From Frigoribacterium sp. VKM Ac-2836 (GTDB taxonomy: Bacteria > Actinomycetota > Actinomycetes > Actinomycetales > Microbacteriaceae): a DNA stretch of 64,000 nucleotides. Shown here piece by piece: positions 11,520 through 54,442 of this stretch (positions are counted from its first letter, which is position 1; the number at the start of each line of letters is the position of its first letter). A program made the position numbers and the translations under genes. The notes beneath the pieces are model-generated. The model saw only the letters and a list, made by a program, of their open reading frames with translations, did not search any database and was not told where the DNA came from. Where the stretch lies: NCBI RefSeq assembly GCF_013248995.1, contig NZ_JABRPK010000002.1, positions 248,001-312,000 on the forward strand, read 5' to 3'.

Positions 11520-13037
11520 TCAGTCCGACGGTCGCGCGAAGAGGTAGACGACGCTGCGTCCGGTGCGGTGCTCCTGCCGGATCTCGTACCCCTGGTCGCG
11601 CAACTGGCGCAGGTCGGCCGCGCTGAGCACGTCGACCGAGAGCCGGGCGATCCACAGGCGGTCGACCGACGACAACCGGTCGGCCAGCTCGTCGGCGTCG
11701 TCCTCGTCGTCGAGCCGCAGGGTGACGTCCGAGTACGAGCCCGACGGCAGCCCTGAGCGCACGTATGCGATGTCGTCGAGCTCGGCGAAGCGCTCCGGGT
11801 AGGCGTAGATCGCCTGACGGGGGCGCGTCGAGACCGTGCCGGTGGCGTCGAGCAAAAACGCGTCGCCCGGACGGGCCTGGCTCTCGATGTAGCTCGACAG
11901 CTGCGCGAGGTCGCTGCCACCCCCCTTGCCGGTGGGCAGCCGCTGCAGCACGTAGGTCGGGACAGAGCCCGCGACCAACAGGGCGACGAGGGCGATGCTG
12001 ATCCACCGCCTCCGGAAGCCGGTGACGGCCACGGCCAGCAGCAGGCACATGCCGGGAGCCGAGAAGGTCACCAGTCTCGACGTGTACACCGGCGACAGCA
12101 CGAGTCCCAGCACGAGCAGCAGCCCTGCCGGCACCGCGACCCAGAGCGCGCCGAGCAACACGACGCTGCCGGGCGTCCGCGACCGGTCGCGCAGGCGCGT
12201 CCCGAGCAAAATGAGCAGGATCGCCGAGATGACGGCGAAGGCGAGGCCCGTCACGAACCACGGTTCGACCAGGACCGTCCACCAGGTGACGTCGGCCCCC
12301 GTCGACGGATCGGCCACCCCGAGGAGGCGCGATCGCTCGGCGAGGACGGTCCCGATGACCGGCGCGGTCGCGAACAACGCGGCCCCGGTCGAGACGGACC
12401 AGCCGAGGAGGCGGTGGCGGGCGCCACGACGTCGGCGCTGTGCCGGCGCCAGCAGCAGGAACACGCCGTGGACGACGATGATCAGGCCGAGAGGGACGTA
12501 GGTCGCGATCGACCCGGCGAGGACCGCGCCGTACCCGATCCACCAGCGCCGGCGGTGACGTCGGGACGCCACGAGCAGCAGGACGGTCACCCAGACGGCC
12601 AGCGCGGCCGAGAGCGCGTAGGGGCGGGCCTCGGCGGCCTCGAGCGTGAAGCGGGGCAGCACCGCGTAGAGCGCGGCGGCGAGCAGGGCCGTGCGGCGCG
12701 TCGTCAGCATGCGCGTGAGGACGAGCACCCCGGCGGCCCCGGCTCCGACGAACACGGCGGAGGGGAGCCTCGTGACCACCTCGGCCTCGCCGAAGGCGCC
12801 CACCCAGACGCGCATGAGCAGGTAGTAGACCGTGTGCACCGCGTCGCGCTGATCGACGAAGGCCAGCAACTGGCCGAGGGGCAGTCGTGCCACCTGCAAG
12901 GTGGTCGCCTCGTCGCTCCAGTACGAGGGCACCCAGCTGAAGGCCGCCCCGAGCAGCAGCGCCGCGAGTCCGGCGACGAGTGGGTCGAGCCAGCGGCTAC
13001 GGAGGGGGACGACGGCGGGGTCGTGACCGATGCTCAC
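11520..13037 (-). CDS. GT39/PMT-like membrane glycosyltransferase
   Basis: The 505-residue polytopic protein has about 11 hydrophobic segments after a short N-terminus. The first extracellular loop holds WVPSYWSDEATT, with the acidic pair of GT39/GT83-type dolichyl- or polyprenyl-phosphate-mannose transferases. RFTLEAAEARPYAL resembles a second family motif. The C-terminal 120 residues form a soluble domain. Such enzymes glycosylate exported proteins or lipids using polyprenyl-phosphate sugars. The substrate is not evident. The gene converges on ddaH and starts downstream of the tRNA terminator. Confidence 0.75.
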   Translation of the reverse strand: MSIGHDPAVVPLRSRWLDPLVAGLAALLLGAAFSWVPSYWSDEATTLQVARLPLGQLLAFVDQRDAVHTVYYLLMRVWVGAFGEAEVVTRLPSAVFVGAGAAGVLVLTRMLTTRRTALLAAALYAVLPRFTLEAAEARPYALSAALAVWVTVLLLVASRRHRRRWWIGYGAVLAGSIATYVPLGLIIVVHGVFLLLAPAQRRRRGARHRLLGWSVSTGAALFATAPVIGTVLAERSRLLGVADPSTGADVTWWTVLVEPWFVTGLAFAVISAILLILLGTRLRDRSRTPGSVVLLGALWVAVPAGLLLVLGLVLSPVYTSRLVTFSAPGMCLLLAVAVTGFRRRWISIALVALLVAGSVPTYVLQRLPTGKGGGSDLAQLSSYIESQARPGDAFLLDATGTVSTRPRQAIYAYPERFAELDDIAYVRSGLPSGSYSDVTLRLDDEDDADELADRLSSVDRLWIARLSVDVLSAADLRQLRDQGYEIRQEHRTGRSVVYLFARPSD

Positions 13038-39603: not shown

Positions 39604-39694
39604 GGTACCGTGTCCGAGCGGCCGAAGGATCATGTCTCGAAAACATGTGTGGGGGTTAACTCCACCGTGGGTTCAAATCCCACCGGTACCGCCA
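39604..39694 (+). tRNA. tRNA-Ser (CGA)
   Basis: A class-II tRNA with acceptor GGTACCG/CGGTACC, anticodon loop CTCGAAA, a long variable arm and encoded CCA. Accessory DNA begins immediately downstream, a usual integration site, but no copy of its 3' end was found in the window. Confidence 0.96.
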
Positions 39695-39799: not shown

Positions 39800-40177
39800 T
39801 TGCCGGCGAGGGGTTTGGGACCTCTAGACCGCTTCCTCTGTGCCATTGGGCGCGCAGTCGGCTTAAACGGGTGGCACTTGGACACGGTCGACCTGAGCAT
39901 GAAAGACGGCAGGCCCTTCGGGTACGTCACCTTCGTAGAAGCAGGGGCCGGCCGTGAAGCTCAGGTAGCCGTTCGTTGGGATCATGTGCACGACCAGCTC
40001 CAGTGCTTCGCAACGGACCGGAACATCGGCAAAGAGCGAGGCGAACTCGAGCGGGACGTTCGTCATCGAGTTGGCGCGCTGGTGGCTGCCTACGCCCAGC
40101 TGGGCCTGTCGATCGCAACTAGTTACGTTGCCGCCGAGGCATTGCGGACCGCGGCCAATCTGGCGCCCCATCGCTAG
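39800..40177 (+). CDS. hypothetical protein (uncertain start)
   Basis: A 125-residue frame from TTG at 39800, or 92 residues from ATG at 39899 (MKDGRPFGYVTFVE). The C-terminal part is plausible helix (RHRVGALVAAYAQLGLSIATS). No family recognised and no clear ribosome site. It could be a fragment at the island edge. Confidence 0.35.
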   Translation: MPARGLGPLDRFLCAIGRAVGLNGWHLDTVDLSMKDGRPFGYVTFVEAGAGREAQVAVRWDHVHDQLQCFATDRNIGKERGELERDVRHRVGALVAAYAQLGLSIATSYVAAEALRTAANLAPHR

Positions 40178-40433
40178 CTGCTCTCAGCCCCCGGGTACGG
40201 GGAGAGCGTGGTATCGCAGTCCGGACCGCAGCGCCCCCGCTCGCAGGAGAGCCGAATTGCGGTCAGACTCTTTGAAGCCAACACAAAGGGGCGCGACTGC
40301 CCATGGCGTCGTCAAGTACGCCTCGGTGAAGGAGCGAGCCGGGGGCTTGGCCCAGCAGAGCGACTGGGGCTCCGAGTCGACGAGCGTGGCCCGGCGCGGC
40401 ATTAGAGAGGGCGGTGCCACGGTTTGGGGCCGT

Positions 40434-42386
40434 TCAGCGGCGGATCTTGTCCGTCGAACTTGACGGAAGGTGTTCGCCTATGTGGCCGATGTAGATGCAT
40501 CCGTCGTTAGAGACCTGGTCGTAATAGTGGATTCGAAGCTTTTGCTGCGCTGACCAGCTATGCGGCTTGAAGTGAGACCACATATGCACGTGCCCAGTAG
40601 GGTCGACCTCCTTCGGCACGGGAAGGAGGCGATGATCGCCGAATCGCGCGCGGGTGTCGCTTGTTTCGTCTCGGGCGTGCTTGTTCGGTGGGACGTGGAA
40701 CCGGTCAGCAGGACCGGATTCGCAGAACGCGTGCACGCTGCTGTCCCACACCCCATCGAGGCGCGACGCCCGGTAGGCAGCCATAGTGCCCAACGCGTCC
40801 CAGGCCGCGCGGAGCCCGGCTTGGTCGAGGTCGAGCGCTTTCACCGCTTTTACAGTCCGTAGGTTCCCGGTGATGACGATTTGGTGAGTGGCGAGTCTGG
40901 GATCGGTGAGGAGGGCGTCCCAGTCGGCGGGGCTTGAGCCGAGCGGGTTCGCCGGTCCGTTGTCGTCCACCCAGCTGTACGCGTTCGCTGGGTCATGCTC
41001 GATCACCTTGCTGCGTAGGAATGCGGCCTCCCGGTTCTTTGCCGCGAACTGCACGTCAAGGCGATCCCGTTCTCGGGTGACCGCAGCAGCATCGGATCGT
41101 TCGCCCTCCAACGTGTCCTCCAGCAACTCGACCTTGCCGCGGAGTTCGTCGTTGTCCGAGAGCAAGCGCTGAACCGATTCTGCGTCCGGCACGGTTCGTG
41201 TCGCGGCATCAAGTAGTTCGAGCAACGTCGACTCGAGGAGATCCGGCAGGCCGAGGAAGTCTTGCAGCTCCATCAGCTGGCGGAGAGCCTCTGCTCGCGC
41301 GGAATTTGCGGTCGCTACCTCGGTGCGGAGCGCGACGATGACATCCGCCGAGAGGTCTTCCGCCGCTACTGGCGCTACCGCGGGAACGGATAGGCCAATC
41401 GTATCGACCATGGTGGGCTTCAACGCCGGTCGCGCAGCCTGTCGGGCTGCGACGCGTTCGCTTAGCGGCACGGCATTTGGTTCGACCGCGGAACGGAGCC
41501 GCTGCGCGGCGGTGCGGTCGAAGGCCCTGTTCCACTCTCGAACCGTCGGGGGCAGTGGCTTCTGGTACTGACGAACGAACCGCTCGACGGTCCGTTCGAT
41601 GTCGGCATCCAGTCCGGCGAGGGTCCGCGTCGTCAGCCAGCGCGCCGCGGCTTCAGTGGCGGGGTCGTCTAGATCCACGTCCGGTGGGTAAGTCCGTAGC
41701 GTCCCAGCCCCCACGGCACGCCGACCGTGCAGAGCGCGAAACTGCTCAGCGGAGATTGGATCGAGCGAGACCACATGTGCGATGCCCGCGCATCGTCGAG
41801 TCCACCGGCGCACACCCTGCATCCACTGTTCGAATTCGATCCCGTCGATGGGTGCGGCGACAAGAACCGGGAGACGACGAGTCGGGTCATCAATCAGTTC
41901 CTGAAGCTCCTTGAGCCCGGCGTTCGATACGTGCCGCACACCGGTGCGGACGGGACCAACATCTGAGAGATCAACGACGTCGAGGATCATGTCCGCGACC
42001 TTCGGTTTCGCTGCCCGTCGCCGGTCAGAGGAAGCCGTCCGGACGCTGACCCATCCTCCACTCGGGCCGTCCACAGCGACGATGGTCACAACAAACGTTG
42101 TCCCCCGATTTGTGTTCCACGCGCGGACCCGGACCCCGTCCTCGCGTCCTGCGCGACGGTGCAAGACTTCGACTCGGCGTGTTGGGGGTGAGCCGACTGC
42201 TTCGCCTTCGACACCCGGGTCGATTTCGACCCCGAGCTTGTCTCTACTCCACGCGGCCACCTCGTCGAGCACGCGGCGCAACCAGTTGCTACTGCCCTGG
42301 GTGGTCCAGTACGCCTGATAGTCGTGATCCGCAGGTGCGGCAGTCTCCGTTTGGCTGACGTCCGTGCGCTCATCCGTGGTCGTCAC
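40434..42386 (-). CDS. 650-residue protein of unknown function in island
   Basis: The protein starts at GTG 42386. The N-terminal half mixes alpha and beta segments, including LPVLVAAPIDGIEFEQWMQG and RRCAGIAHVVSLDPISAEQF, reminiscent of large uncharacterised actinobacterial proteins. A charged coiled coil spans about 395-450. The last 60 residues form a beta-rich module (HMWSHFKPHSW, LRIHYYDQVSNDGCIYIGHIG). It has no visible catalytic motif or membrane segment. It is alone, about 800 bases from the AAA gene and divergent from it. A defence-related role is guessed from location only. Confidence 0.6.
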   Translation of the reverse strand: MTTTDERTDVSQTETAAPADHDYQAYWTTQGSSNWLRRVLDEVAAWSRDKLGVEIDPGVEGEAVGSPPTRRVEVLHRRAGREDGVRVRAWNTNRGTTFVVTIVAVDGPSGGWVSVRTASSDRRRAAKPKVADMILDVVDLSDVGPVRTGVRHVSNAGLKELQELIDDPTRRLPVLVAAPIDGIEFEQWMQGVRRWTRRCAGIAHVVSLDPISAEQFRALHGRRAVGAGTLRTYPPDVDLDDPATEAAARWLTTRTLAGLDADIERTVERFVRQYQKPLPPTVREWNRAFDRTAAQRLRSAVEPNAVPLSERVAARQAARPALKPTMVDTIGLSVPAVAPVAAEDLSADVIVALRTEVATANSARAEALRQLMELQDFLGLPDLLESTLLELLDAATRTVPDAESVQRLLSDNDELRGKVELLEDTLEGERSDAAAVTRERDRLDVQFAAKNREAAFLRSKVIEHDPANAYSWVDDNGPANPLGSSPADWDALLTDPRLATHQIVITGNLRTVKAVKALDLDQAGLRAAWDALGTMAAYRASRLDGVWDSSVHAFCESGPADRFHVPPNKHARDETSDTRARFGDHRLLPVPKEVDPTGHVHMWSHFKPHSWSAQQKLRIHYYDQVSNDGCIYIGHIGEHLPSSSTDKIRR

Positions 42387-43186
42387 TGACCCACCCTTCG
42401 CTTAGTGAGAGAAGCTTACCTAGGGAAGGTGTCGTCATGCGTTAGCTCCCTTTCGATTCTCGGCATCGATCCCAGCACGGTCCGCTGATGGTTACGGCCA
42501 TACCGGCCCTATGCGGGCACGTCGGCCATGTCCGGCATCGACGTCCTACCTCGCCACCGGTTGTGCACTACTCGCTAACCGTTTCCGCCCCCGGGGTACA
42601 AAGCTGGTTCAGGCCGTTGACTCGGCATCGTCGGACCAGGTAGACGGATGCTTCACCTTCCGGCTCAGCGGCAGGGGGATGCATCACGGGAACTTTTCGT
42701 CTCTGCCAGCGGCTCATGACGTCAAACGCGTCGCTGACATCGCGGTCGCCGCAAGGTGCTGCCTCCAAGTCCACAAGTGGACGCCCGCTGTGCCCACTTC
42801 TGGGGCGACAGGCGGGGCGGGGGCATCCACCCCGACCTCCACATTTACGCTCGGGCGGCTTTAGCCGCCCCGCTCACCCGGTGGCGGCCAGCTTCTGCCG
42901 GCGCCTCCACTTCGCGGGGTCGTTCGCCTGCTCGCAGAGGGGGTTGGAGGAGGGCCGAATAGCGACCGCCGTGGTCGATCCAAGGCTGCTCGTCAGGCCT
43001 GGTGAGTTCGCAACTAACGCGCTATGTCGTTCCGGGCGAGCCCTTGGTTCCACATCGCATTGCGCACCTGCTTGATCGTGTCTGAGTGGACGCGACAGGC
43101 TCATTCTCGACGTTTGGGCAAGCCCAAATGAGACCCAAGTGGGTGTGTGGCTGTCTCTCGTTGTGTGCAGCGTGTCCCTCAGCTCG
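42387..43186. other. gene-poor stretch between divergent island genes
   Basis: About 800 bases with no convincing gene; the frames found lack family features or overlap known starts. GGGCGGC and GCCGCCC form a short hairpin at about 42852-42869. Confidence 0.4.
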
Positions 43187-43212
43187 TCAGAAATGTCTGA
43201 TCGGGGTCTTAG
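43187..43212 (+). promoter_or_regulatory. palindrome and -10 of the AAA/subtilase operon
   Basis: TCAG-N6-CTGA (43187-43200) lies just upstream of TAGTAT (43207-43212), which ends nine bases before the ATG at 43222. The palindrome sits in the spacer or -35 region and could be an operator. Confidence 0.45.
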
Positions 43213-43221
43213 TATGTCCGT

Positions 43222-44409
43222 ATGGAGCACTTCTCGATCGTCAAGGCCATCGGCCGCGCCGCGCTGGCGGCGGATAACCGGGAGGTCGTTGCTCATCAGC
43301 TGGTTCGCCTCGAGGCCGCGCTTCGCAGTTCTGGTGACGGCGACGCTGATGCCCTTCAGAAGATGATTTCTGCCGCTTCCCGCCCTCGCCGAGCTGCGCC
43401 AAGCCGCGTTGCTCGAAGCGCAGTCTCCGCGTTGGAACGTATGGCGGTGGGTGTGCCGGTGCCGGTTGATCCAGAGAGCGCGGCCCCGCTTGCGACGGTT
43501 GTGTTCCCTGAGCAGAACACTGCGAGTCGACCTATCTTCAACGACGTCGTGACGGAGATGGTGCAGTCACTGACCAAGGAATGGGATCATCAGGAGCAAT
43601 TACTGCAGGCTGGCCTGCATCCGTCATTGACCGCGTTGGCCTACGGCCCGCCCGGGACAGGAAAGACATCGCTCGCGCTTTGGCTCGCCAAGGAGCTAAA
43701 TTTGCCGGCAGTTGTTGCCCGTCTTGACGGTCTTATCAGCTCTCTGCTCGGGACAACAGCGCGCAACCTCGGCTCGTTGTTTGAGTTCGCAAACAGGTAC
43801 GAGTGCGTCCTCATTCTCGACGAGTTCGACGCCATAGCGAAGCTTCGAGACGACCCCAACGAAGTTGGGGAGATCAAACGAGTTGTGAACGCGCTCCTAC
43901 AGAACATGGATGGTCGCGCCGCGATCGGCATCACTCTGGGATTGACCAACCACGAAGCGCTCCTTGATCCAGCAGTTTGGCGTCGGTTCGAGGTGCAGGT
44001 GCCGATCCCCGTACCTGCCGTTCCCGAACGAATTGCCATTGTCGCCGCAGCTTTGGGCGACACCCCCGGCATCGAGGCGGAAGCGAAGCTCATCGTCTGG
44101 ATGACCGATGGCTTTTCAGGGGCGGAGGTGACCACGGTGTGCAAGAAATGGCGGAAGCGCCAAATTGTGGACGGTCTAGCCCGCACCGACGCAGTGCAAT
44201 TGATCATGCAGGTCACGGCTTCCACTGCGGCGCGTTTTGGTGCAGCGGATCGTCCTGAGTGGCCGAACCGAGAAGCTCTCATCGCCGATCTAGTCCTGAG
44301 TGACACTCTTCACTTCTCCCAGGGTGAACTGGCACATTTGTTCGGCATCAGCACCAAGACCGTAAGCCGCCTAGTGAATAAAATTCAGAGCGAGGATGGC
44401 AATGCCTAA
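43222..44409 (+). CDS. AAA+ ATPase with C-terminal HTH-like end, partner of a subtilase
   Basis: The 395-residue protein has about 95 residues of helical N-terminus, then an AAA+ core. Walker A is [10 protein letters not shown] (141-150), Walker B CVLILDEFDA (about 195-204), with sensor-1-like GLTNHE and arginine-finger-like AVWRRFE. It is a FtsH/spastin-like ATPase by look. Residues 363-390 (SQGELAHLFGISTKTVSRLV) resemble a helix-turn-helix. It is translationally coupled to the subtilase (stop overlaps its start). The pair probably works together, the ATPase sensing or unfolding and the protease cutting. Confidence 0.8.
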   Translation: MEHFSIVKAIGRAALAADNREVVAHQLVRLEAALRSSGDGDADALQKMISAASRPRRAAPSRVARSAVSALERMAVGVPVPVDPESAAPLATVVFPEQNTASRPIFNDVVTEMVQSLTKEWDHQEQLLQAGLHPSLTALAYGPPGTGKTSLALWLAKELNLPAVVARLDGLISSLLGTTARNLGSLFEFANRYECVLILDEFDAIAKLRDDPNEVGEIKRVVNALLQNMDGRAAIGITLGLTNHEALLDPAVWRRFEVQVPIPVPAVPERIAIVAAALGDTPGIEAEAKLIVWMTDGFSGAEVTTVCKKWRKRQIVDGLARTDAVQLIMQVTASTAARFGAADRPEWPNREALIADLVLSDTLHFSQGELAHLFGISTKTVSRLVNKIQSEDGNA

Positions 44410-46930
44410 CCAGCCAGTCCAGATCGTCACAAACCCGCAGCGGCTGACGCAACGGCGCGACAAACCGTCCCCAAATTCCGCCGGTACCGATTTTTTCGCA
44501 GGCAATGACGCTGGATTTGCTCGCCATCAGGTGCGGTTGACGACGCAACTCGCCAGCATCATTAGCGCACTAAAAGTGCCTACGTACATGAATGATTACA
44601 ATGGCTTGGGTTTTGTAATCGTCAAGATGAGTTCCCAAGCCATCGCGAAAACACACCGGCCGCAGATACGCCTGTTCAAGAAGAATGCAGTTCCTCATGT
44701 GGCCACGCGGGGCATTGGAGAACCAATCTTCGCCTGTACCCCGGAGACGCTTCGTGGAGTCCTTGAGCGGCTCCGTCAAGCTGAACTCAGCGTCGGTACC
44801 AAAACGCTAAAAACTGGAGAGATCGTCGCGAACCCGACGAGAGCCCGGTGCGAAGCGTCTGCAATCGCGAGCATTGAGCTGTGGTCTGTCGCAGACAAGC
44901 GTGCCTTCGATGCTGAGGATGGGGTTGCGTGGCTGAGTCGGTCCGGGTCGGGTGGCAGATACCACGTGGAGCTCTTCCCATTTGGTGGGGTGTCAGCACC
45001 GGCATCTCTGACATCTGCTGGCCAGAGCGCAGCGCGAGCGCTCGAGAACGACCTCACCAACGTCTCCGTTGACATAAATGCGCAAGCGGCTCGCGGGGTG
45101 GGCGGCCCGCTTGCTCTATCTGTGGCTGTGCTTGAACCAGGCGTCCCCGGGCGTACTGAACTCGGAATCACACTCGAGGAAGTCGGAACCGCGCTTCGAA
45201 GCCGCGGGAACCCAGCCCCCAACGTCGACGTCGACGAACATGCGCGTGTTCTCAACGCTCTCGAACGCAACCCGCTCGTACGCTCCATCGCGCTCCCGCC
45301 GCTCCCCTCAGCCACGCAGGGAGAGGCTGCAGCCACCGGCGCCCTGGCATTGCCCGTCCTCCCGGGCCCCGACGAACAGACCCTGCCAATCATCGGTGTA
45401 CTGGATGGGGGCGTTGGGCCCGTGCTCGACCCTTGGGTTGTCGACCGCTGGACGGTGATAAGTCCATCGGACACGGACGCGGAGCATGGCACGTTCATCA
45501 GTGGCCTCCTGATCGCGGCAGGACCGCTTAACCCGTCGCTTTTGGATTCATCACGTCCGGCCTGCCGGATACTGGACCTTAAGGTGCTGCCAGCGGACCC
45601 TGGAGGCACTGGTGTCAACTTTGGCCGCTACTACCCCGGTGGAGCCGCGGAGTTTCTCGACGAAATTGAAGACGCTGTCCGAGATGCCAGGAAACGGTAT
45701 GACGTCCGAATATTCAACTTAAGCGTAAATTTTGACGGGCCCGGCGACGACGCGCGTTACGGCTTCACGGCGCAGCGTTTGGACGAGATAGCGCGACAGC
45801 ACGACGTCATATTTGTGATATCCGGCGGTAACCTTGTGCCTAGTGATCAACGTGCCGAGTGGGGTACGAATCCTGACCGTAACCTTGCTGCGCTGGTTCG
45901 GGAGACGAGGACGACGGTCTCGGAACCCGCTGAGAGTTTGTTTAACCTGTCAGTAAGTGCGTTGAACCCACCTGGAATTGGTGGACAGGTGCCCTATGCC
46001 CTCACTAGGTACAGTCGAAGAGGGCCGGGGTTGCGCGGAGCTACAAAACCAGATCTTGCGCATATCGGCGGTAGCGGCACGTACGACAGCGTCGCTGGTT
46101 ACGGCCTGGTCTCAGTCGATGAGGCCGGAGCGGAAGTCACGGACTGCGGGACCAGCTTCGCGGCGCCCCTTGTCGCGCGCGAGCTCGCTGACCTCGACGT
46201 CGCCATTCAGGGGGATGTGCCCCGTGAGGTGCTCCTGGCTCTCCTAATCCACGAGGCGAGAATGCCGAAGCAACTTCAGAAGGGGTCAATCGGTGCAGTC
46301 GCAACCCAGCTTGCAGGTTTCGGCGTGCCCAGCCAGACGCACCACACTCTGGAGCGTCCCGACTCGGAAATCGTAATGGTCTTTAACAGCACTGTGCTGC
46401 CACGCGAGGAGCACAGTTTGGACTTCTCCTGGCCGGCTGCCCTAACCACAAACGGTAAGTGCCGCGGGTATGCCCGGCTGACTCTGGTTGCGCGGCCGGT
46501 TCTTGCCTACGAGCACGGGGACGAACGCATTCGCGTCAACATCGACGCTAAGCTCATGCAGCAAAATGAGGATGGCGGGTTCAACAATGTGCTGAAGCCT
46601 GTCCACAACCCCAACGCCATGGCCAACCCAAAGACCGAACGCGAGCGGCTGCGAGAGAATCACAAGTGGCAGGTCGTGAAGAGCTTCGAGACGGCCAACA
46701 TGCGTGGACGTGGCAGCAGCTCGACGTGGCGGTTCTTTGTTGAGTACCTGACCCGCGCGGAAGAGCCGCTCCCGATTAAGGGCGTCGAGTTCGCCGCGGT
46801 CCTCACGATTTCCGACCCCAAGGGCGTCGCACCGGTTTTTCAGCAGATGCGGCAACAACTAAACGCACGAGGGGTGCAGACCACTGACATTCGGGTCGGA
46901 ATTCGCAACCGAGTTAGCACGCGCTTCTGA
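44402..46930 (+). CDS. subtilisin-family (S8) serine protease paired with AAA+ ATPase
   Basis: The 842-residue protein lacks a signal peptide, so it should be cytoplasmic. Residues 1-325 are a large unrecognised N-terminal region. The S8 domain has Asp335 (IGVLDGG), His362 (AEHGTFISG) and Ser585 (CGTSFAAP), with oxyanion Asn in VISGGN, so the triad is complete. A 240-residue C-terminal beta-rich region follows. The ATG at 44402 is preferred (GAGG six bases upstream); 44396 is the alternative. Composition is AT-richer than the chromosome. It is similar to AAA/S8 pairs often seen in defence islands. Confidence 0.82.
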   Translation: MPNQPVQIVTNPQRLTQRRDKPSPNSAGTDFFAGNDAGFARHQVRLTTQLASIISALKVPTYMNDYNGLGFVIVKMSSQAIAKTHRPQIRLFKKNAVPHVATRGIGEPIFACTPETLRGVLERLRQAELSVGTKTLKTGEIVANPTRARCEASAIASIELWSVADKRAFDAEDGVAWLSRSGSGGRYHVELFPFGGVSAPASLTSAGQSAARALENDLTNVSVDINAQAARGVGGPLALSVAVLEPGVPGRTELGITLEEVGTALRSRGNPAPNVDVDEHARVLNALERNPLVRSIALPPLPSATQGEAAATGALALPVLPGPDEQTLPIIGVLDGGVGPVLDPWVVDRWTVISPSDTDAEHGTFISGLLIAAGPLNPSLLDSSRPACRILDLKVLPADPGGTGVNFGRYYPGGAAEFLDEIEDAVRDARKRYDVRIFNLSVNFDGPGDDARYGFTAQRLDEIARQHDVIFVISGGNLVPSDQRAEWGTNPDRNLAALVRETRTTVSEPAESLFNLSVSALNPPGIGGQVPYALTRYSRRGPGLRGATKPDLAHIGGSGTYDSVAGYGLVSVDEAGAEVTDCGTSFAAPLVARELADLDVAIQGDVPREVLLALLIHEARMPKQLQKGSIGAVATQLAGFGVPSQTHHTLERPDSEIVMVFNSTVLPREEHSLDFSWPAALTTNGKCRGYARLTLVARPVLAYEHGDERIRVNIDAKLMQQNEDGGFNNVLKPVHNPNAMANPKTERERLRENHKWQVVKSFETANMRGRGSSSTWRFFVEYLTRAEEPLPIKGVEFAAVLTISDPKGVAPVFQQMRQQLNARGVQTTDIRVGIRNRVSTRF

Positions 46931-46993
46931 CGTGCGGGACCCGGAGAGATGCGTCGGAACGACTGTCGGCTCGGCGGCCCCGTGGCCCGAACC

Positions 46994-47158
46994 TCACTTC
47001 TTCTTGGACTGATCGTTCTCGGGGGAAGGCGCCGTCTTCTTGGCCTGAGCGCTCGCGCTGCTCCGCGTCACATACTTGCCGGTCGTCGGGTTTACTCGGA
47101 TGCCGCTGACGCGGTATGCCCCGTTCCCTAGGCTCTGAAGTGAGTAGCCGTTTGCCAT
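46994..47158 (-). CDS. 54-residue basic protein downstream of SIR2-GAF gene
   Basis: This small gene starts at ATG 47158 with a perfect AGGAGG six bases upstream, and ends at 46994. The protein begins MANGYSLQSLGNGAYRVSG, continues with VNPTTGKYVTRSSASAQAK and ends KKK. The NPTTGKYVT segment recalls small actinobacterial proteins of unknown function. It follows the SIR2-GAF stop by 25 bases on the same strand, so it is probably the third gene of the CHAT/SIR2 unit; an inhibitor or adaptor role is only a guess. Confidence 0.7.
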   Translation of the reverse strand: MANGYSLQSLGNGAYRVSGIRVNPTTGKYVTRSSASAQAKKTAPSPENDQSKKK

Positions 47159-47183
47159 GTCTGCCTCCTACCTAATTTGGAGT

Positions 47184-48584
47184 CTACGTCCTGGACACGG
47201 ATCCGGTAGATGCAACGAGCCGTTCGCCCCAGTCGACCGCGATGTCAAGTGTCGTGTCCATCCACATTGCCGTCGACTGGAAGTAGGTCTCGGCGCTTCC
47301 AGGCAAGCCAACGCTTAGAACGGCTGACGCGATTCCCGGAAGACCGTCGAGTTCCACGCGAATTGGGGTGGCAAAGACGGTACCCCAGCGACTCGTCGTT
47401 CCCTCTTGCAGGTCCTGAAACACCGTCGCTTCGGCGCCGAGCGCACGGCCCGCGATCCACTGGCTGTCGTGACCGCTAGGCACGTGGCGCACATCGTCGA
47501 TGGAGCGGAAGCAGCGATCTTGAGCTGCGTAACGAGCAACGTTGCCTTGCCCGTCTGCGATCCATAGCGTTGCGTTCAGGCGGTCGACGTTAAACGCCGT
47601 GCAGAGCGAGGTGGCGTCCGAAAGCAGCTGATCTGAGTACGCCTGCTGCAGGTCCTGAAATGAATCGACATGCGCCTGCCACAGAGTGGCAGCTCGCTCC
47701 TGCGGTGCGCGGTAGCCGGGTGCATGTAGATGCCGCAACTCTCGAATGATCTGCGCGGCATCCGAGTGGTCTTCGAGGATCACGGGAGTAAGACCCGCTG
47801 CGCTCCACTGATCAGCCAACGCCTCCTTGATCTGGTCGAACTCCGGCCTTGTGACGTGAAACGATTCCCTGGCCAGAAGTACCAACGCGTTCGATGCGTC
47901 GGGAGCGGCCAGGGCCACGTGTAGCCAACGCCGGACGTCGGGGTCGCGGTAGGACGTTCCTGCGATCACGATGGCCCCTTTCTTGGCGCACGCGATAAGC
48001 AGGCGTTGCTGCCACGAATCCGGGTCTCCTAGCAGCTCGTTAAAGTCGGAAAGGGTAAGCACGACATCTTGGCTCTCGCGCACTGATGCAACGCCGTGGA
48101 GGTGATGCACCGGAATCGTTCCAGCAGGCCGCTGGTCGTCGATTCGGGGCTCAGCAGTGACCGCATCGCCAGCTTCGTCGATTGCATCCTCGATAAGCGT
48201 GTCGAAATTCAGGGTGATGACCGTGGACTCTCCCAAATCCCCGGCCAATGCGTGGCTTGCTGCCGCAATGTGCAGAGGTGACGGGGACAAGTCATTGAGA
48301 TTCGAATAGAGCGCTGCTCGAACGTATTGGTCCCAACGCTTCCCGAGCCGCCGGCGTGCCGCTTCCGCTACGAGCAAAGGGTCTTGTCGATTAACCAGCA
48401 ACCACGCGGCGTCCTCATCGGGAACTGACCCAGAGGCACGAAGGAGCCGGACTGCCAGCTCCTCCCACCCGGGCAAGCCTGACGCTGCTGATGCGCCAGC
48501 TCCGAGCAATAGCGTGACGTGTTGGTCACTTCCGGAGTCACGAAAGGAGCCCATCGTTGCAGCGGTCAAGTCGGGCGCGCTCAC
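47184..48584 (-). CDS. SIR2-like NADase domain fused to GAF-like sensor domain
   Basis: The 466-residue protein has an N-terminal SIR2 fold: LLLGAGASAASGLPGW (NAD-binding), TLNFDTLIED, and HLHG with the likely catalytic histidine. These match effector-type SIR2 domains (ThsA, DSR type) more than deacetylases, since no zinc-ribbon cysteines are seen. Residues about 310-466 look like a GAF domain (LCTAFNVDRLNATLWIAD, GRALGAEATVFQDL, RWGTVFATPI). The start is GTG 48584 or ATG 48554. An operator-like palindrome overlaps the GTG. NAD+ depletion upon ligand or stress sensing is the inferred role. Confidence 0.8.
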   Translation of the reverse strand: MSAPDLTAATMGSFRDSGSDQHVTLLLGAGASAASGLPGWEELAVRLLRASGSVPDEDAAWLLVNRQDPLLVAEAARRRLGKRWDQYVRAALYSNLNDLSPSPLHIAAASHALAGDLGESTVITLNFDTLIEDAIDEAGDAVTAEPRIDDQRPAGTIPVHHLHGVASVRESQDVVLTLSDFNELLGDPDSWQQRLLIACAKKGAIVIAGTSYRDPDVRRWLHVALAAPDASNALVLLARESFHVTRPEFDQIKEALADQWSAAGLTPVILEDHSDAAQIIRELRHLHAPGYRAPQERAATLWQAHVDSFQDLQQAYSDQLLSDATSLCTAFNVDRLNATLWIADGQGNVARYAAQDRCFRSIDDVRHVPSGHDSQWIAGRALGAEATVFQDLQEGTTSRWGTVFATPIRVELDGLPGIASAVLSVGLPGSAETYFQSTAMWMDTTLDIAVDWGERLVASTGSVSRT

Positions 48585-48597
48585 AGCATCATGCTGT
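48583..48597. promoter_or_regulatory. perfect 15-bp palindrome at SIR2-GAF start
   Basis: ACAGCAT-C-ATGCTGT straddles the GTG start of the SIR2-GAF gene. It is a candidate operator in the short gap after the CHAT gene. Confidence 0.45.
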
Positions 48598-48650
48598 CAC
48601 ACGAGCCACGCTCACGGTTTCCGACGGTGGCGAGCCTCACGCTTTGTGAT

Positions 48651-48680
48651 TGAGCGCCCACGCCTTGAGCGCCCACGCCT
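48651..48680. repeat. 15-bp tandem duplication at the CHAT stop
   Basis: TGAGCGCCCACGCCT occurs twice in succession, ending at the CHAT stop codon. Replication slippage is the simple explanation. Confidence 0.75.
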
Positions 48681-49774
48681 TAAGCGTCCGGGGGTAGCTC
48701 GGGCAGTACGAGGCGGGTCTCGTAAGGGTTGTAGCCCTCAGCGGCATGCAGCTGTGGAAGATCATGATCAGGCAGCCCCATCATCTCTAGAGCTGTCTTT
48801 GCGAGATCGTGCGAGGAGCCGATGGACTGTCCGTCCGCGATGGACGCGTAGAAGCGTGCCGCGTAGTTGATGGCGTCAGAATTCCCTATTGAGTCGGAAT
48901 GACCAATAGCGAAGGCCGCGATGCTTTCTGTCACACGGTAAGCCTGTGCAGCGGTCCTGCACGCATTGAGGACGACGAGAAGCGGAGTTTCGTCGACAGC
49001 TTGTAGAGCACGCCCCAGTAGCCGGCCGGACATCGTATGACCGTCATTGTGGGCGTCGACATCTTCTTCGAAGACAATGACGTCCTCGTTGCCGTGGCCG
49101 GAGAAGTGCACGACGTGAGGGGTGCCCTGCGTAAGACCGTTCAGAAGGTCTGCGCTCGTCGCAGCAGGCCTGACGTCGAGTCGAACCTGGTCGCGACCAG
49201 ACGCGAACCGAACTGCATCCTGAATTTGCTTCTGCTCGCGTCCGACGCGCCGGTCATCTCGGCCTGACGAGGTGAGGATAAGGATGCGGAGGCGCTCTTT
49301 CTTCGGCTGTCGAAGGTCGGCTATTGCCCTCTCGTGCACGTCGAAGCGCATCGCCATCTCGTCGCGCAGACGGCCCGTCTCGGCCCTGACTGTCGTCACT
49401 TGCTGAGCTCGTTGCCTTTCTAGGGCAGTGTCGGTCTGCTGACGCTTTCGTTCCGACGCCCTTAGTTCCGAGGCTTCGGCGGCTGACATCTGCCTTTGAA
49501 GAGCTACTTCTTCGGCTAGGTACTTGCTCGCCTTGGTCTGCCAAGCGGCGGCGTCCTTGCCGGCGGTGTTGGCGTCCTGCTCGTACCTGTTTGCGTCCCG
49601 CGATCGGGACTTGCGCGTCGACTCGCTGCTTGTCTTGGATGCAGCAGTCCGAGCCTTTGTCGCATCCGCCCGCTTGGCGTTCTCTTTCGTTCGTGCCGCC
49701 GAGGCCTTCTTCTCCGCATCGGCCTTCTGCGCGCGCTTCCGATCCAGTTGAGACCGAATCGTCGAGCTGCTCAT
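48680..49774 (-). CDS. CHAT-domain (caspase-like) protease with N-terminal coiled coil
   Basis: The 364-residue protein has a highly charged coiled coil (about 1-155), then a CHAT domain. It opens with RLRILILTSSGRD...EQKQIQDAVRF, has HFSGHG (His227) and VVLNACRTA (Cys272), the dyad of clan CD proteases. The ATG is leaderless (TAGCCT six bases upstream). It is the first gene of a unit with SIR2-GAF 95 bases downstream. CHAT proteases act in programmed death and in CRISPR-linked immunity; here the activator is unknown. Confidence 0.82.
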   Translation of the reverse strand: MSSSTIRSQLDRKRAQKADAEKKASAARTKENAKRADATKARTAASKTSSESTRKSRSRDANRYEQDANTAGKDAAAWQTKASKYLAEEVALQRQMSAAEASELRASERKRQQTDTALERQRAQQVTTVRAETGRLRDEMAMRFDVHERAIADLRQPKKERLRILILTSSGRDDRRVGREQKQIQDAVRFASGRDQVRLDVRPAATSADLLNGLTQGTPHVVHFSGHGNEDVIVFEEDVDAHNDGHTMSGRLLGRALQAVDETPLLVVLNACRTAAQAYRVTESIAAFAIGHSDSIGNSDAINYAARFYASIADGQSIGSSHDLAKTALEMMGLPDHDLPQLHAAEGYNPYETRLVLPELPPDA

Positions 49775-50304
49775 GGTGCGAGGCTAAGGGAACGCCCCGA
49801 CTCTTGGGCGCAGAAGAGTTCGAAAAGTCCCGCGGTGCGGTGACCTACGGTTCGTCTCCCGCCGTACGCGCATGGGGTGTTCATGCTTGAGGATCAACCA
49901 CGAGGCAGAAGCGAGGCTCCCCGCCTCGGTCAAGCAACCAACAATTTGGCAGCAGTGAGGCCTGGGGCTCCAGAACGTTTGCCGGGTTGCGGGCGCCGCC
50001 GCGGCAAGGGGAAGCCCGACACGCCCCGAGGGCTGCGGGGGCTGGCAGGGGAAATCGCTCTGACATTCGGGGGAAACCCAGCTTCGGTCTGGGGTCCGAG
50101 GCCCCAGTCTGCAACGATCGAGGGGATCTGCAAACAGCCCGCCAGACAAAGAGCCTCGAGGACCCCGTGATTACAGGGTTCCCGGGGCTCTTTTCTTTGT
50201 CGACAGGGCCCAGCGGTGACACAGCGGTAACAGGGACGCGGTGAGCTCCAGTGAGTAACCAGCACCTCCGCATCACGAGGGGTGTCCAGCTGCCCCATCC
50301 TGCG
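49775..50304. other. gene-poor stretch with strong hairpin
   Basis: No gene is convincing here. At 50148-50194 AAAGAGCC...GGGGCTCTTTT forms a long hairpin with a T-rich 3' side, a good plus-strand terminator of something no longer recognisable. Confidence 0.5.
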
Positions 50305-50690
50305 GTCAAGACAGAACGTCAAAATCTCGTCGTCGACCTTGACCCCCGGGCACATTAGACAGCTCTATCGACGCCGACCTCGGTGACGATGACCAGGCCC
50401 AACTCGCGGACGCCCTCAGCTCCCGTCTCCCCGAGACACTGCGGGACGTCATGGTGCCGGGCCTGTGGCCTGGCCTCGAATTCGTGCCGACCGCGGGCGT
50501 CGCCCTCGGTGCCAGACGCGACGAGCTCGTGATCGCCGACGCAGGCCGCGAGAGCTGCCTCCACGAGGCCTGCGAGCCGTCGCCGGTAACTACGACCTGA
50601 TCCTGATCGACTGCGCCCCGAGCCTCGACCAGCTCAGCAGTAACAGCCTGACGGCCGCCGACCGGGTTGTGGTCGTCGCTCACCCTCATG
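50305..50690 (+). pseudogene. decayed ParA-family ATPase
   Basis: ParA pieces appear in all three frames: LVVDLDPRAH (50305-50358, then stop), SIDADLGDDDQAQLADALSS to DELVIADAGRES (from 50358 to about 50580), and YDLILIDCAPSLDQLSSNSL plus ADRVVVVAHP (from about 50585). At least two frameshifts separate them. The Walker A end (KGGVGKT) is missing. It is a relic of a plasmid- or element-borne partition gene. Confidence 0.8.
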
Positions 50691-50977
50691 GAGACGTTTG
50701 GCGCGTAGTTCTGCTGAAAGGATCTCGACTCCACAGGGGCCTCGCCAGCCTGCATCGTGCACGGCGCCACGAATGCGCATACGGGAAGCGCGTTGGCGTT
50801 CGGTAGGCGGTAGTTCACTGGGGCAGGGTGTGGTCGATTCGTTCGCGCGCATTCCATCGCGTGGGGGAAATTCCTGAGGATTACGTCAATTAGTTGGCAT
50901 CGCTCGGCGAGGGCGTTCTAGCGTTTTTCCAGACCGATCAGTACACCAACGGAATTCGACCGAGAGGACGCAGACCA

Positions 50978-53333: not shown

Positions 53334-53708
53334 ATGGCAACGATCGAGCTCAAGGCATACACCGCTTCCGTTCGGACGGATATGCCCGAACTCGTGGGTG
53401 CGCTTCGCGATGTGCTCGGGGCGCAGCTCGTGGCCTACATCGCCGGCGTCAAAGAAACCCGCGCGGTCCGTCAGTGGGCAGAGAATGACGGTCGGCGCCC
53501 GCAGCCCAAGCAGGAGCAGCGTCTCCGCCTCGCCTACCGGGTGGCAGCTCTGCTGCTTGATCAAGACGCCCCTCGGGTGGTGCAGGCCTGGTTCCAAGGA
53601 ATGAACCCGCAACTCGACGACATCGCACCAGCACGTTTCATCCGCGAGACAGACGGCGACGACGCGAAAGTCCTAGCCGCCGCGCAGAGCTTCGCCGCGA
53701 ACGGATGA
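53334..53708 (+). CDS. Xre/MbcA/ParS-type antitoxin of RES system
   Basis: The 124-residue protein has the helical N-terminus and Xre-MbcA-ParS toxin-binding core typical of RES partners: VAYIAGVKETRAVRQWAE, LRLAYRVAALLLDQ, VVQAWFQGMNPQLD. It neutralises the toxin and represses the operon in known cases. Stop and start codons overlap with the toxin gene. Confidence 0.87.
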   Translation: MATIELKAYTASVRTDMPELVGALRDVLGAQLVAYIAGVKETRAVRQWAENDGRRPQPKQEQRLRLAYRVAALLLDQDAPRVVQAWFQGMNPQLDDIAPARFIRETDGDDAKVLAAAQSFAANG

Positions 53709-54442
53709 TCGATCCGAACTCCCTGCAGCACATGTCCGCGCCGTCGCCGGTGTGGCGTGTGGGGCGCCGGCCGAACCCCTGGGACTGGGCGCCCTGGCGA
53801 TACGCCTCAGCGGACACCGGGACCTTCCCCGGTCGCTGGGACTCACCCGCCCCGCACACCTACCGAACGACCTACGCCGCCACCGAACCCCAAGGTGCCC
53901 TCCTCGAGGTCCTCGCCCGTTTCCGACCGGACGCCTCTCTCGTGGCCGCCATGACGGAGATCGTCGTCGACGAAGCCGATCGAGCCCTCTATTCCACGCA
54001 ACAAGCTGGCATCGTCCCGACTGAGTGGTTCGCCGCACGGTTGCTCACCCGGGCGTCTCTCGCCGGAAGCTACCTCGATATCGCCCACTCCGAGACCATC
54101 GCGGGCTTCTGGGGTGAATTCGCCCACTCGGCGATCGCTGAGTACGGCCTCGCGGACTTCGATGGTTCCGCGCTCCAGAACGCCAATGTGCGCCCACTGA
54201 CCCAGGCCATCAGCGCCCGGGTGTACCGAATGACCAACGACGACGACGTCCCGTCGTTCGACGGCATCCGATTCCTGTCCCGATTCGGCGCCGACCAGGA
54301 GCTCTGGACCGTCTTCGAGCAACCCGACGACACTTCCACCAGCAAGCTACTGAGCGAGATCCAGACCATGGCCATCTCCGAGGGCGATCACGCAGTGGCA
54401 CAAGCCATGCAGACGCTCGGGCTCACGCCCGACGAGGACTGA
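53705..54442 (+). CDS. RES-domain toxin (NAD+-degrading family)
   Basis: The 245-residue protein has the RES fold: WRVGRRP at the start, GTFPGRWDSP, YRTTYAATEPQGALLEVLARF, and the later RPLTQAIS. Its fold is ADP-ribosyltransferase-like, and characterised members (MbcT, Res) consume NAD+. It is the second gene of a standard antitoxin-first pair. It contributes an NAD+-targeting activity to this island. Confidence 0.87.
   Translation: MIDPNSLQHMSAPSPVWRVGRRPNPWDWAPWRYASADTGTFPGRWDSPAPHTYRTTYAATEPQGALLEVLARFRPDASLVAAMTEIVVDEADRALYSTQQAGIVPTEWFAARLLTRASLAGSYLDIAHSETIAGFWGEFAHSAIAEYGLADFDGSALQNANVRPLTQAISARVYRMTNDDDVPSFDGIRFLSRFGADQELWTVFEQPDDTSTSKLLSEIQTMAISEGDHAVAQAMQTLGLTPDED

Follow-up and report, generated by a model that had tools for sequence, protein, structure and literature searches.

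A SIR2-GAF protein and its dedicated small partner form a two-gene operon, probably an anti-phage system of actinobacteria

The functional unit described here is a two-gene operon, in which a gene for a SIR2 domain fused to a predicted GAF domain is followed by a gene for a small partner protein. This SIR2-small pair is probably an actinobacterial anti-phage system. It was found in the window, the whole 64,000-nucleotide stretch of Frigoribacterium DNA that was analysed, downstream of a CHAT protease gene (Table 1). As the initial annotation had reported, all three genes lie on the minus strand, with gaps of 95 nt between CHAT and SIR2 and of 25 nt between SIR2 and the small gene. That annotation had joined the three genes into one immune operon; the comparisons below uphold the pairing of SIR2-GAF with the small gene and set CHAT apart.

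Table 1. Features of the SIR2-small locus and its surroundings (positions in the window)
Feature	Position	Strand	Remarks
SIR2-GAF gene	47184..48584	-	466 aa
SIR2-GAF protein			SIR2 domain ~1-290 (N126/H163), then signalling helix, predicted GAF domain ~309-458
Small basic partner gene	46994..47158	-	54 aa, net +7, YRV ... TGKYV core
CHAT protease gene	48680..49774	-	coiled-coil-like N-terminus, H227/C272; neighbour only
Candidate extended -10 box upstream of SIR2-small	48591..48599	-	TGACAGCAT, -15 to -7 from GTG
Shine-Dalgarno AGGAGG of the small gene	47164..47169	-	read from the sequence
IetA + IetS, known defence pair, separate system	43222..46930	+	PADLOC 447 and 819 bits
10.3-kb block common to Frigoribacterium PhB160	39868..50144	.	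adjoins tRNA-Ser
tRNA-Ser gene	39604-39694

Results

A small gene follows SIR2-GAF in every locus

Relatives of SIR2-GAF were collected by a peptide-pattern scan over 84,980 species genomes, which returned 39 loci. Long relatives with 36-100% identity, all Actinomycetota by their titles, made up 23 of these (L014-L036), and the other 16 (L037-L052) were partial and distant; in the seven distant loci that were inspected (L037-L043), none had a small partner within 400 nt downstream or, judged by eye, a GAF part. In PLSDB, 12 plasmid records matched SIR2-GAF, and in nine the match spanned 80% or more of the protein. Six of the 12 records were retrieved and four (L008, L009, L010, L012) were used, giving with the 23 long relatives a set of 27 loci. 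Excluded from this set were L011, where SIR2 is split by insertion sequences, L013, which encodes a different long protein, and L001-L005, each of which is the window, its sister or a duplicate of another locus. The pair occurs in eight families of actinobacteria: the tree contains seven, and plasmids add the Nocardiaceae. Recombinases lie near SIR2 in several loci, and viral_contigs contained no match to SIR2-GAF.

Directly downstream of SIR2, 27/27 loci have a short gene, and its core is the same throughout. The 54-residue gene called in the initial annotation is genuine. When profiles were built without the locus in question and its listed near kin, the small ORF was the top match in all 27 cases, with E-values of 0.0012 to 2e-19. 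Selection on the small gene is purifying, with pN/pS of 0.18-0.45 in nine of ten pairs and synonymous sites near saturation; in the tenth pair the sequences were too close to judge. The encoded partners have 50-69 residues and are of low complexity and usually basic. Three loci with a broken SIR2 (L011, L018, L035) have an intact small gene; L035 comes from a metagenome bin, and its in-frame SIR2 stops may therefore be sequence errors. The same locus holds a second small-protein gene (11784-12176, minus strand) with two RSAxSGRY repeats, convergent to the SIR2-small pair.

Besides SIR2, no gene of at least 90 aa recurred in more than 8/27 loci when recurrent neighbours were sought by similarity, and a third gene was rejected on this ground. 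The next groups were one including an ABC-transporter ATPase (8 loci, scattered) and recombinases (5 and 3 loci); the others were reading frames lying antisense to the SIR2 gene and a small number of three-locus groups, among them one (L026, L029, L031) whose L029 member had no PADLOC match at 1e-5.

Among 199 genomes of the family, the five strong matches to the small protein (57.7-76.7 bits) fell in the five genomes with a SIR2 orthologue, a count that leaves out two weak, partial SIR2 matches. Nine further genomes gave weak matches of at most 29.9 bits, covering the C-terminal RSAxTGRYV half only. Across 396 genomes of the phylum, the window's own genome gave the only strong match, and twelve others were weak (at most 31.3 bits). 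Since the weak hits match the C-terminal half only, it is the N-terminal half, S-x-Q-x-L-G-x-G-x-Y-R-V in most members, that marks the SIR2 partner.

As a motif, the C-terminal half is more widely distributed, occurring also beside what we take to be nrdE/nrdF (L094). This half being a generic small-protein motif, we rejected the view that the small family serves defence only. The small protein of L008 had no match in the phage collection. In two genomes (L080, L081), an RSAxSGRFV small gene lies between presumably kinase-like and helicase-like genes; this may be another conflict operon, its small protein being related.

An immune-type SIR2 domain is joined to a predicted GAF domain

The SIR2_2 domain scored 65.3 bits, above the Pfam cut-off. 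Structure comparison assigned the SIR2 part to the defence-type NADase fold, with ThsA, KomC and DSR2 as nearest relatives, and the best 35 structure matches were all defence SIR2 enzymes. N126 and H163, which we take to be the catalytic pair by analogy with ThsA/DSR2, were invariant in 22 aligned SIR2 proteins, and these putative catalytic residues are thus kept in the alignment; the titles of matched structure entries name H171A (DSR2) and H146N (KomC). By its family, the SIR2 head is thus a putative NADase. For the C-terminal part, the GAF call from sequence was weak, and AlphaFold structure prediction, which gives fold and not ligand, showed a GAF fold. The fusion of SIR2 to a GAF-like part, as first described, was borne out.

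CHAT is a neighbour of the operon

The CHAT gene was correctly recognised: PF12770 scored 32.2 bits, above the Pfam cut-off, and H227 and C272, the residues singled out at the outset, were invariant in 10 aligned members. The nearest solved chain was 8tl0 (E 4.6e-28), a SAVED-CHAT protein according to PMC11417357. Its CHAT domain is alike, whereas the window's CHAT has a coiled-coil-like N-terminus and not SAVED. This N-terminus resembled PADLOC PDC-S66 (30.7 bits, residues 1-129 only, for a model without a given cut-off), and no other PADLOC model matched CHAT at E 0.1. A Borvo CHAT protease is named in PMC10952713.

A single immune operon of all three genes, in which an infection-activated protease works with the NADase, is extremely improbable. 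Their common strand, the 95-nt gap and their presence together in one 98.7%-identical block of two strains speak for it. However, tblastn at E 0.01 against 30 loci (the 27 and three short duplicates), with flanks of 5.8-10 kb upstream and 0.6-10 kb downstream searched in the 27, detected CHAT in 1/27 SIR2 loci, that of Frigoribacterium PhB160 (L020). In the 199 family genomes, SIR2 orthologues were present in 5, CHAT in 7 and both in 2, namely the window's genome and one of the same genus (G035), which have one near-identical block in common. Nor did CHAT have a constant neighbour elsewhere: across 11 CHAT loci (L020 included), none recurred beyond pairs of loci, and a partner gene common to CHAT loci was rejected. 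In addition, the gap contains a conserved promoter-like box that belongs to SIR2. CHAT was therefore rejected as an operon member, and the conserved three-gene system is largely refuted: of the proposed co-occurrence, the part linking the small gene to SIR2 stood in 27/27 loci, and the three genes together are nearly absent outside the strain. Most likely, CHAT works alone as a protease and makes up a separate one-gene module of the island. Setting it apart avoids a chase after a false three-gene system.

SIR2 and the small gene carry different initiation signals

In the window, TGACAGCAT (48599 to 48591) resembles an extended -10 box, and SIR2-small could therefore be transcribed without CHAT. 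G-14, A-11 and T-7 were found together upstream of the SIR2 start in 23/27 loci, compared with 4/85 neighbouring ORFs, a noisy control in which the longest start was taken. The A-T pair at other offsets was seen in 0 to 2 of 26. The promoter-like box in the CHAT-SIR2 gap was also kept in loci without CHAT. The position of the box puts the expected 5' end of the transcript at the start codon of SIR2; the SIR2 mRNA would then be leaderless and begin inside the CHAT-SIR2 gap. A Shine-Dalgarno-like word preceded the small gene in 27/27 loci and SIR2 in 4/27. Leaderless genes are common in actinobacteria, and a leaderless box alone is thus no proof of regulation.

The CHAT-SIR2 gap (48585-48679) contains a 15-nt tandem duplication that is single copy in PhB160, and a CAGCATGATGCTG palindrome spans the -10 box and the SIR2 start codon.

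Charge of the small protein mirrors that of the SIR2 domain

Small-protein charge was inversely correlated with SIR2-domain charge (Spearman -0.66, n=21, p 0.001) in a post hoc comparison that tried two domains and leans on one clade; no correlation was found with the GAF part (Spearman 0.14). The set of 21 was alignment A3 without the near-identical L020, A3 itself being without the broken L018 and L035 and the plasmid copies. Basic small proteins numbered 26/28, and the two acidic ones (-7, -4) belong to Mycetocola, which also has the least acidic SIR2 domains (-7, -1). Without Mycetocola, the correlation was -0.55 (n=19, p 0.016). Tree-corrected r was -0.51 (p 0.019), falling to -0.33 without the largest contrast, and contrasts were negative in 11/17. 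The same trend was absent in neighbouring proteins (n=20). SIR2 positions that differ in charge in Mycetocola are 41, 50, 55, 57, 58, 65, 187 and 189, and further 119, 136, 141, 219 and 243. Mirror-tree analysis gave r 0.84 for both small-SIR2 and small-GAF and therefore singles out no domain. The charge link is suggestive only, a hint of contact and a lead.

Discussion

A proposed NAD+-depletion unit

We propose, with about even confidence, that the pair is an anti-phage NAD+-depletion unit, with SIR2-GAF as the NADase and the small, usually basic protein most likely restraining it. The SIR2 head would be an NADase kept silent in the resting cell, and the GAF domain, joined via long helices, would serve for sensing or dimerisation. 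The small protein would bind directly to the acidic SIR2 domain and would most likely hold it in check, as an antitoxin does. Infection or another stress would remove the small protein or supply a GAF ligand, upon which the SIR2 heads would assemble and destroy NAD+, stopping cell and phage. In several of the known immune enzymes of the SIR2 type, activity is withheld until a partner or assembly switches it on. We infer the NADase activity from the family, and the restraint, the trigger and the anti-phage role are likewise inferred. A small gene that is intact where SIR2 is broken fits a brake, in three loci that are few and may include sequence errors. The link to defence comes from the SIR2 fold, the mobility of the pair and, in Frigoribacterium and Curtobacterium, the IetAS genes next to it. 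In the other SIR2 loci, the flanks are not clearly defence islands: PADLOC at 1e-10 on 85 flanking proteins from 22 loci gave two SoFic, two PDC-S24 and two PDC-S04 matches and one each to IetA, IetS and an oxidoreductase model. A similarity search for recurrent neighbours in the flanks revealed neither a linked trigger nor a linked cyclase.

The constant presence of the small protein would be equally expected of an activator, a chaperone or a sensor. The main rival, in which this protein is an activator or infection sensor that passes a signal to SIR2-GAF, is possible though unlikely. The pairing data fit it just as well, the GAF domain is a plausible regulatory surface, and ThsA, KomC and DSR2 are SIR2 effectors that a signal or partner activates; structures of these three with ligands and phage proteins were among our structure matches. 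Against this, an intact small gene beside a broken SIR2 is easier to understand for a restrainer, although there are three cases only, and a low-complexity, usually basic protein of 50-69 residues leaves little room for a sensor. Unlikely, too, is that the pair is a toxin-antitoxin pair for plasmid or island maintenance, its anti-phage effect being absent or secondary. The 12 matching plasmid records, nine of them with the coverage of at least 80% given above, point this way, as do the recombinases nearby in several loci and the combination of a toxin-like enzyme with a tiny partner in two genes. The adjacency to IetAS in two genera and the closeness of the SIR2 fold to anti-phage enzymes argue for defence, but both are compatible with a maintenance role.

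Returning to the brake, its restraint might be tied to translation mode, a reading to which we give little credence. The SIR2-GAF toxin would be leaderless and its brake Shine-Dalgarno-led on the same transcript. Phage attack on leadered initiation would lower the short-lived brake while the NADase would still be made, and NAD+ would be emptied; the leaderless/leadered split, conserved across genera, would be the sensing device, and the GAF domain would set its threshold. If the split matters, it would give a toxin pair a novel means of sensing what state the ribosome is in.

Relation to known systems

None of the PADLOC, NCBIfam, Pfam or PHROGs models searched describes the SIR2-GAF and small pair, in agreement with the early remark that no described system is known to have this set. 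The pair was likewise not found in literature on SIR2 with GAF or a small partner, in a search whose sources were partial texts and included few subscription papers and preprints. In the libraries and literature searched, we found no description of SIR2-GAF with a dedicated small partner. The likely SIR2 immune effectors would gain a GAF-bearing enzyme and a dedicated 50-69-residue partner, in a pair that is small and easy to test.

Thoeris ThsA shares the SIR2 NADase-type fold. However, its C-terminus is a SLOG domain, where SIR2-GAF has the predicted GAF domain, and SIR2-GAF has a small protein partner in the 27 loci instead of a large recurrent one. The limit of 8/27 loci for genes of at least 90 aa applies to a ThsB-type TIR partner as well, although divergent TIR genes might not cluster; the best 25 of 80 Pfam families in the flanks of SIR2 loci were surveyed. 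Kongming KomC and the DSR2, SPARSA, Avs5 and SIR2-HerA enzymes have C-terminal parts and partners of their own, different from those of SIR2-GAF. The 466-aa SIR2-GAF also fails the NCBIfam Dsr1 model NF041818 (22.4 bits, cut-off 1400).

With type II toxin-antitoxin systems, SIR2-small has in common two linked genes that are kept together (27/27 loci). RES/Xre is an NAD-depleting toxin-antitoxin system with an enzyme fold other than SIR2. SIR2-small resembles this pair, and NatR-NatT (PMC11535050), in being a two-gene unit of an NAD+-directed enzyme and a partner; it differs from both in enzyme fold and partner, and neutralisation is here putative.

The operon lies on a block shared between strains

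The 39868-50144 block, which contains IetAS, SIR2-small, CHAT and a HEC-07/NsnC-like gene, is 98.7% identical to that of Frigoribacterium PhB160 over 10,278 aligned positions, whereas the chromosomal flank just before it reaches only 79-82% identity to the same strain. In the three congeners compared closely (G592, G596, G598) of 15 others that match, homology ends at 39869, ~175 nt past tRNA-Ser; in the remaining ones, some also end at 39869 and some near tRNA-Ser. Recent transfer of the whole block is the likeliest explanation of this sequence pattern. Direct repeats bounding the block were looked for and none found.

IetA and IetS are convergent with the SIR2-small operon in the window, and the same orientation was found in Curtobacterium pusillum (L026:11598-15300, minus strand; IetS 827 bits, IetA 433 bits). 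IetAS beside SIR2-small is a recurrent pairing of two modules in Frigoribacterium and Curtobacterium, and the setting beside this known defence pair supports the immune reading of the initial annotation.

Other genes on or near the island were also noted. Inside the shared block, a 650-aa gene (40434-42386, minus strand) has a weak HEC-07 match mid-protein (32.3 bits) and a C-terminal NsnC match (32.2 bits) and is possibly another defence gene. Between CHAT and the next gene, 50306-50860 holds reading frames that we take to resemble ParA fragments, perhaps mobile-element remains near the right end of the island. Just past the island (53334-54442, plus strand), a small gene precedes one with a RES domain (PF08808, 41.4 bits), and the two look like a toxin-antitoxin pair of the RES/Xre type.
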